Shown in pieces: positions 30,601 through 33,600 of a stretch of DNA of 64,000 bases; the first letter of the stretch is position 1, and the number at the start of each line of letters is the position of its first letter. The stretch comes from Diabrotica undecimpunctata (Eukaryota > Arthropoda > Insecta > Coleoptera > Chrysomelidae). The stretch is taken from assembly GCF_040954645.1 (NCBI RefSeq), contig NC_092807.1, positions 26,942,353 to 27,006,352 on the forward strand. The letters are read 5' to 3'. The position numbers were made by a program, and so were the translations under genes. The notes beneath the pieces were generated by a model. The model did no database searches and was not told where the DNA came from. It saw only the letters and a list, made by a program, of their open reading frames with translations.

Positions 30601-33600
30601 CCAAATGTAGGAAGCAGAACTAATACCTTTAAATACATCTTTAGAAGCTGCTGCAATCACAATTAATAGTGACATAAAAATCTCAATATGCAACATTTAT
30701 ATGCCACCGCGTGAAAATTTTTCAACTGCCGTAATTGAGGAACTACTTTAACACATCCCATAGTCATAGCCCTTACTGGAGATCCAAATATGGAGATACG
30801 ATAATTAAAAGAAAAAGTGCTAGAACAAGTACTTGACAGTAACAAAATAAACATCTTGAATTCCTGAGATATACCTTCAACTTATCTACAATTCTCTGAG
30901 GTACTATTAGAAGCAGGGCACAAAGCAGTTGGAAAAAGCAAAACTCTAAAAATTCACACACCAGTACCATGGTGGAATAACAAATGTGACGAATCCATTA
31001 AAAAGTACAAACGAGCTCTTAACAACTTCAGACGATGTCCTGTTACACAAAATCAAATAGAATATAAAAAGCTAACAGCTGAATCTCGATATAAAATTAA
31101 GCAAACCGAAAAACAACACTGGAAATAAATCCGTAAAATAGTTTCGAAACACAATTCAGATTTATGCCTTAATCTGAGCCTTCTAAAAATTGCAAGGCAA
31201 AGTAGACATTGATAAAGATGTTAATAGAGACATGGGGAATCTAAAATTTGCATTCCACGACATGTCTCCTCAACTAAGCAGAAATCATTAGCGGATTGGT
31301 TTCTTGTACTCATACAGAGTAGATCCGAATAAAATGAAAAAGACAGTCAAGATTTGATTTCACGTACAAAGCGTCTATGTATCTGTTTATACGTATTTCG
31401 CCTTAATAAGGCTCATCAGAACAGTTATTCATAGGCGTTCTCAACATGAAAAATAAATCTTTCCTGTCTTTAAGAAGCAACACTAAAATGGCTTCGAAAC
31501 GGACGCAATAGCGACATCTGATAATAAATCCGTAAAATAGTTTCGAAACACAATTCAGATTTCTGCCTTAATCTGAGCCTTCTAAAAATTGCAAGGCAAA
31601 GCAGACGTTGATAAAGATGTTAATAGAGACATGGGGAATCTAAAATTTGCATTCCACGACATGTCTCCTCAACTAAGCAGAAATCATTAGCGAATTGGTT
31701 TCTTGTACTCATACAGAGTAGATCCGAATAAAATGAAAAAGACAGTCAAGTTTTGATTTCACGTACAAAGCGTCTATGTATCTGTTTATACGTATTTTGC
31801 CTTAATTAACGTCTGCTTTGCCTTGCAATTTTTAAGGCTCAGATTAAGGCAGAAATCTGAATTGTGTTTAGAAACTATTTTACGGATTTATTATCAGATG
31901 TCGCTATTGCGTCCGTTTCGAAGCCATTTTAGTATTGCTTCTTAAAGACAGGAAAGATTTGTTTTTCACGTTGAGAACGCCTATGAATAACTGTTCTGAT
32001 GAGCCTTATTAAGGCGAAATACGTATAAACAGATACATAGACGCTTTGTACGTGAAATCAAATCTTGACTGTCTTTTTCATTTTATTCGGATCTACTCTG
32101 TATGAGTACAAGAAAATAATTCGCTAATGATTTCTGCTTAGTTGAGGAGATATGTCGGGGAATGCAAATTTTAGATTCCCCATGTCTCTATTAACATCTT
32201 TATCAACGTCTGCTTTGCCTTGCAATTTTTAGAAGGCTCAGATTAAGGCAGAAATCTGAATTGTGTTTCGAAACTATTTTACGGATTTATTATCAGATGT
32301 CGCTATTGCGTCCATAACGAAGCCATTTTATTGTTGCTTCCTAATAAGACAGAGAAGATTATTTTTCACGTTAAGAACGGCTATGAATAACTGTTCTGAT
32401 GAGCCTTATTAAGGCGAAATACGTATAAACAGATACATAGACGCTTTGTACGTGAAATCAAATCTTGACTGTCTTTTTCATTCTAAAACTGGAAATCTTT
32501 CGTGGCATTTATCAACAACTCTACTTCCCTGTCTGCATTATGGGGAAAAATTGGTCAACTATTTGGAAAACAGCAAAACGCCCAAATTCGTTTCTTAAAA
32601 CATACTGATCAATTAATTACCCCAACAAAAGAAATCACAGAAATTTTTGCAGACCTTTACGAACAAAATTCCAGTACTAACAACTACTGTCCAAATTTTC
32701 TTCAATTTAAATTTAGAAATGAAAAGAAGGAGATAATGATCACAGAGAACACGGATGACTACATGAACTCTCCAATTTCACTAGAAGAACTGGACGATGC
32801 ATTGTTTGGCATAAAAACCTCTTCTCCGGGTCCAGATGATATACCAATAACTTTTCTCCAAAAACTAAGTACAAACGCTAGAACATACCTCCTTAATGTT
32901 TTGAATTATTTTTTGATATTATTCCAATCCCTAAACTTCAAAAACCGAAAACACATCCCCAGTCCCATAGACATATATCCCTAACCTCGTCAACCTGTAA
33001 GCTATTCGAAAGGATTATAAACCGTCGCCTTACATGGAGCAAAACGGCTTTCGTCACAATAGATTAACGACGGATAACCTAGTTGATATTGAATCCGAAG
33101 TTCACGAGGCACACATTAACAAACAACACTGTCTAGCTATTTTCTGCGATAAAACAAAATCCTACGATTACATATGGAGATATGGTATAATAAAAAAGCT
33201 TTAATCTTGGAGTATTAATAGACAATGCCTAAAATTTATTCAAAATTTTCTTCAACTCAGAACATTTAAGGTACGAGCAAATGGAACACTATCGTCAACT
33301 CGAATCCAGGAAAACGGAGTCCCCCAAGGATCGGTGTTAAGTGTAACTTTATTTTTTGTTGCAATTAACGATATTTTGGAACAATGTCAACAAACATTTA
33401 AAGGAAGACTGTACGCAGACGATCTGCGCATTAAGTAATCTCCAGAAATGGTCTGACAAAACAGGACACAGCTTCTCTAACGAAAAAACCACTAAGATAA
33501 TCCAATTTTAACATTGAGTGGCAAGAATCTGATCTTTGTAAAAGAAAGAAAATTCCTCAGTCTTACATTTGGACAAAACATTGGTTCAGAAAAGTCACAC

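Follow-up and report, generated by a model that had tools for sequence, protein, structure and literature searches.

Animal non-LTR retrozymes are described, in the extracts of PMC7229834 used here, as units of 170-400 nt with low G+C content, no LTR and target duplications (TSDs) of over 4 bp, and they are reported from insects in general terms. Mosquito is among the hosts of hammerhead repeats listed in PMC3088659. In amphibians, dimeric cutting is associated with a short helix III and palindromic loops (PMC7229834), a combination also noted in the wider hammerhead survey (PMC3088659). The enzyme that moves animal retrozymes is left open between LINEs and Penelope-like elements (PMC7229834), and in the extracts consulted the case for a link of retrozymes with Penelope is built on the type I hammerhead common to both, on tandem copies and on co-occurrence.

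Penelope-like insertions in rotifers carry inverted and direct pseudo-LTRs (pLTRs), most often head-to-head, with palindromes at the inverted junctions; the TSDs of individually named copies measure 8, 9 and 10 bp, and other copies lack one (PMC3846280). The author of that work accounts for the inverted layout by self-priming on an antisense template rather than by priming of the two strands of the target. The purified Penelope-like protein of an anole cleaves the two strands of its target and extends each of them, initiating within the RNA at sites that lie 85-92 nt past the hammerhead cut by subtraction from the numbers given in PMC11167929. Mutating the anole ribozyme left insertion in vitro unaffected, and the ribozyme cut was not the end point of any read (PMC11167929).

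The window analysed here, a stretch of 64,000 nt from the beetle Diabrotica undecimpunctata, carries two insertions of one 400-nt unit (copy 1 and copy 2), which are very probably non-autonomous animal non-LTR retrozymes, a kind of element that is already known. A sequence-only reading had proposed a retrozyme-like element at copy 1, which is supported by the sequence, the shuffles, the folding and the empty site. Copy 1 spans 31127-32487 and is flanked on both sides by the 9-bp TSD ACTGGAAAT (31118..31126 and 32488..32496). When the flanks are joined at one copy of the TSD, the LINE frame is open over 249 codons with one stop, which is the end of the listed ORF at 32984, whereas the other two frames have 17 and 18 stops. 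Part of the right flank matches the fetched LINE reverse transcriptases in pieces, with a best E of 6e-10. The target duplication inside a LINE, the movement of the block as a unit and the lack of an ORF, all claimed before, are borne out by these data and by a longest ATG frame of 30 aa in copy 1.

Copy 1 is made of two arrays of about 1.7 units each. The minus-sense array (31127..31806) has one intact hammerhead and a second one cut off in stem II; it starts inside stem II of the broken hammerhead, spans the 399-nt unit and stops at unit position 264, and its unit match extends to 31124, which gives a microhomology of 3 nt (AAT) with the target at the left junction. The plus-sense array (31801..32487) has two intact hammerheads, lies head-to-head with the minus array and begins at unit position 171, with the unit match running through position 58 and followed by two bases and the TSD. 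Units are 399 or 400 nt long, have a G+C content of 0.35 and repeat head-to-tail with nothing between them. The arrays are head-to-head mirror copies and not one tandem, which corrects the first description. The head-to-head junction (31801-31809) lies inside stem II of the broken hammerhead, with a few nucleotides of possible microhomology.

The hammerhead cores, CTGATGAG...CGAAA, are found at 31396-31419 (minus strand), 31996-32019 (plus) and 32396-32419 (plus). The corresponding ribozymes, of type I topology, occupy 31371..31437 (minus), 31977..32044 (plus) and 32377..32444 (plus), with predicted cuts at 31388/31387, 32027/32028 and 32427/32428, respectively. Stem III has only 2 bp and is closed by a palindromic ACGU loop, stem I has an internal loop AAUAA/AUA and a long extension, and loop II has 3 nt. 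The predicted cuts of the plus strand are 400 nt apart. The minus strand has a single complete hammerhead, the one cut at 31388/31387; its neighbour at a distance of 399 nt ends prematurely in stem II, at 31806, and has GCAAAA in place of the GCGAAA of the others. Since the minus array has only one complete hammerhead, only the plus array could release a full monomer, which is 32028..32427 (400 nt, 35% G+C, circular fold z -5.2) and is the sole complete one between two intact cut sites. The earlier reading is corrected accordingly, two complete ribozymes being present in the plus array only.

A motif descriptor, which was written after the three hammerheads had been seen, required the core CTGANGA...GAAA, at least 3 bp in stem II, at least 2 in stem III, at least 4 in stem I and NUH at the cut. 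It retrieved from the 64-kb window the three known hammerheads, confirming them as first reported, and one more at 14702 (plus), with no other site, while 200 dinucleotide shuffles of the window gave one match in total, or 0.005 per 64 kb. The fourth hammerhead, with its core at 14702-14725 (plus), belongs to copy 2 and has a compensated U-A pair in place of the C-G pair of stem II. The four hammerheads are related copies of one family and not independent matches. Rfam, whose Hammerhead_1 model had been named as a check, gave no match in the window at the gathering threshold. The best weak match in a local search was RF00008 (type III), with 20.7 bits against a threshold of 48.5 and E 0.25, and RF00163 (Hammerhead_1) was absent from the output, in which overlapping clan matches are reported by the best one only. 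At E up to 1, a search of 31000-32600 returned the three hammerheads and nothing else. The sub-threshold score is attributed here to limits of the models, and a match above threshold is not regarded as something that defines retrozymes.

Copy 2, which the sequence-only reading had missed, spans 13265-14786 and lies 17 kb from copy 1. It is formed by a minus-sense piece at 13265..13430 (unit match 13272-13430), a plus-sense piece at 13446..13779 and a final plus-sense piece at 14651..14786, which contains the fourth hammerhead and ends 53 nt past its predicted cut. A perfect 24-bp palindrome (13265-13288) forms the outer left end, and no clear TSD was seen by eye. At the junction of the arms, 15 nt (13431-13445) match neither of them. 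The two plus-sense pieces are separated by the 5'-truncated 3' end of an insect-type LINE (13780..14649, plus; RVT_1 and DUF6451 domains), which has an AAG-rich end and is bounded by an 11-bp duplication, AAAG[C/A]CAGGAA (AAAGCCAGGAA and AAAGACAGGAA), at 13769-13779 and 14650-14660. The retrozyme unit picks up where the LINE broke it (unit positions 317 and 319), and this continuity together with the 11-bp duplication indicates that the LINE came later and that the copy-2 element itself is non-coding. The open frame at 13757-14680 was considered as proof of a coding retroelement with a ribozyme and was rejected, because its protein homology, which reaches 62% identity over 271 residues with a Diaphorina citri protein, begins at residue 9, just past the 11-bp duplication, and the unit continues across. 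The flanks of copy 2 resemble by eye a LINE endonuclease on the minus strand; they had no match at E 1e-3 or better against 241 protein records, all 35 rows of that comparison being from the flanks of copy 1.

Each insertion has its own sequence signature at two sites. GAGGAGA is present in all three copy-1 units and GAGGCGA in both copy-2 units, and the stem II pair is C-G in three of three units of copy 1 versus U-A in two of two units of copy 2, one of the latter truncated. Two such insertion-specific site types are expected if each insertion derives from one template. At a site near unit position 304, one of the three copy-1 units shares the state of copy 2 and differs from the other two, a grouping at odds with a single template, for which a mixed template or a chance change are possible explanations.

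The hammerhead is predicted to lie near the tip of an extended hairpin, about 140 nt long and covering roughly unit positions 316 to 49, which at 31944..32085 (plus) has a z of -6.3. Similar hairpins are predicted at 31330-31471 (minus), 32343-32485 (plus) and 14651-14786 (plus), with a near-identical minimum-energy fold in all four copies. In the two copies tested against shuffles, z was -6.34 and -5.53, and none of 200 shuffles was as good in either. Stems I and II form in the minimum-energy fold of the long hairpin, but stem III does not and some core bases pair otherwise; the centroid fold of the 31944 copy leaves the core open. As isolated pieces of 67-68 nt, all four copies have the full hammerhead fold 5-6 kcal/mol above the minimum, and in two of them the minimum fold lacks stems I and II altogether. 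Over 38 named pairs in four copies, 151 of 151 cells are paired with one two-sided compensatory change, in stem II, and the evidence from covariation is weak, with 128 of 500 shuffles of the four similar rows doing as well. The ribozyme, with 3 of 64 variable positions, is not significantly more conserved than the rest of the unit, with 36 of 336 (Fisher p 0.17), and the hairpin as a whole tends the other way (18 of 137 variable versus 21 of 263 elsewhere, p 0.11). Circular monomers of 400 nt and 399 nt have z of -5.22 and -3.97 (60 shuffles each), the circular folding mode having been checked for the former. These monomers are 60-62% paired, which is lower than the more than 70% quoted in PMC4918200.

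Features shared with the animal non-LTR retrozymes of PMC7229834 are the type I hammerhead, the unit size, the low G+C content, the tandem units, the lack of LTR and ORF, a TSD of over 4 bp (in copy 1) and a self-paired monomer. The mirror head-to-head arrays and the near-apical position of the hammerhead in a hairpin of about 140 nt are different, and no description of a mirror layout for retrozymes was found in the search listings and main-text extracts consulted. Axolotl retrozymes also have a very short helix III, whose four-base loop is palindromic in HHR_Amex1, and cut better as dimers (PMC7229834); host and sequence differ here, and a similar dimer action would be by analogy. The pDo500 repeat of Dolichopoda cave crickets is likewise an insect hammerhead repeat, for which an extended stem I was proposed (PMC2837043), but it is satellite DNA, while the Diabrotica copies are dispersed insertions. 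Exact-pattern scans of the collections of viral contigs and genome contigs gave 0 loci.

Both insertions have the mirror head-to-head layout, with an inverted copy at one side. Their right ends lie 58 nt (copy 1) and 53 nt (copy 2) past the predicted ribozyme cut (n=2). The left ends are at unit positions 264 and 130, and a fixed start could thus apply to no more than one of the two sides. A TSD of the 8-10-bp class is present in one of the two, the 9-bp TSD of copy 1. Inverted plus direct copies in a head-to-head layout and palindromes are also features of Penelope-like elements, in which TSDs of 8-10 bp occur in some copies and are missing from others (PMC3846280, PMC11167929), and the right end shortly past the cut recalls the 85-92 nt of the anole element (PMC11167929). 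The differences are a fuller stem I of the hammerhead here and the lack of a reverse transcriptase or GIY-YIG ORF: none belongs to either insertion, and the GIY-YIG domain, which the sequence-only reading had pointed to as a check, is absent from the 66 scanned of the 99 window ORFs of 85 aa or more.

A Penelope-like enzyme is the likeliest source of the reverse transcriptase, a view held here with about even confidence. The link proposed earlier gains circumstantial support from the anatomy of two insertions, short of proof. A transcript of the plus array would form long hairpins, each with a type I hammerhead close to its tip, and predicted cutting at AUA/AACAG would give 400-nt monomers. 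Because of the 2-bp stem III with its palindromic ACGU loop, two adjacent ribozymes may work as a dimer. If the tested animal retrozymes are a guide (PMC7229834), a host ligase would close the monomers into circles, and a reverse transcriptase supplied in trans would copy the multimer or the circle where both strands of the target are cut. Copying would start about 55 nt past the ribozyme cut on one strand and at another internal site on the other, and the outcome would be two outward-facing partial arrays, head-to-head and flanked by a short target duplication. The enzyme is inferred, as are the cutting and the RNA circles, the latter two from the motif and the tested animal retrozymes. A more specific reading, tentative and possible rather than probable, is that Penelope-type reverse transcription, acting in trans on ribozyme-cut, perhaps circular, RNA, left these insertions as its footprints. 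Both target strands would prime on the retrozyme RNA, in one case immediately beyond the base of the ribozyme hairpin, and mirror arrays with 9-bp duplications would result. If this is true and the right end is common to copies genome-wide, retrozymes would be physically tied to the Penelope machinery. Because insertion ends and mirror arrays can be tallied in any genome assembly, the enzyme question becomes testable by sequence alone.

Insertion of the same retrozyme by an APE-type LINE, through target-primed reverse transcription and twin priming, overlaps with the Penelope reading except for the enzyme and is a possible but less likely explanation. L1-type twin priming also yields short TSDs, an inverted 5' part and head-to-head copies. 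LINEs abound in the window, with RVT_1 in 11 of the 66 ORFs scanned, and the 3-nt microhomology at the left junction of copy 1 would fit the same process, as would the Nematostella repeats with LINE-like TSDs of 15 bp (PMC4918200). However, neither right end has a poly(A) or simple repeat by eye, and the two insertions end at nearly the same internal place on the right, as with a Penelope-like enzyme. A Pol III reading, considered since the right ends lie 2 to 7 nt past TTTTT, is conceivable, but each end extends past the T run by at least CA, and no Rfam match at E up to 1 other than the hammerheads is present in 31000-32600.

That the two copies are fragments of pLTRs from a coding Penelope-like element, and not an independent non-coding family, is unlikely. 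Penelope type I hammerheads do sit in tandem or inverted pLTRs (PMC3846280, PMC7761336), and the ATG inside CTGATGAG is placed as in the anole element, in which the ORF starts at stem II (PMC11167929). This ATG frame stops here after 9 codons, though, the units are head-to-tail with nothing between, and no GIY-YIG domain was found in the scanned ORFs. Penelope hammerheads are also described as minimal, without helix III or loop contacts (PMC7761336), whereas stem I here has an internal loop and a long extension, even if stem III has 2 bp. A hammerhead satellite DNA of the pDo500 kind, split by recombination and inversion without retrotransposition, is very improbable: compensatory changes are known from insect hammerhead satellites, for which an extended stem I has also been proposed (PMC2837043), but copy 1 is a discrete insertion with a 9-bp TSD whose removal restores the host frame, and only two short blocks are present in 64 kb. 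The retrozyme identity of both copies is common to the Penelope and LINE readings.

Other elements are present in the window. Long LINE reverse transcriptase ORFs, relatively intact, are found at 46901-48376 (plus) and 49852-51494 (plus), and the best relative of the former is 54% identical (among the best 120 of 2063 matches). The named relatives of the LINE proteins are mostly from insects, such as Formica, Diaphorina, Cylas, Diabrotica and several Lepidoptera (best 120 of 2063 and best 120 of 268 matches), and one among the matches listed is labelled archaeon. An ORF of 455 aa at 55499-56866 (minus) has a DDE_3 transposase domain and is perhaps part of a fairly intact DNA transposon. Matches to START at 15672-16034 (minus; E 2.7e-6), to MADF at 61486-61851 (minus; 2.1e-15) and, below the cut-off, to UbiA at 42039-42443 (plus; 0.0021) mark segments that are perhaps exons or fragments of host genes among the transposons.
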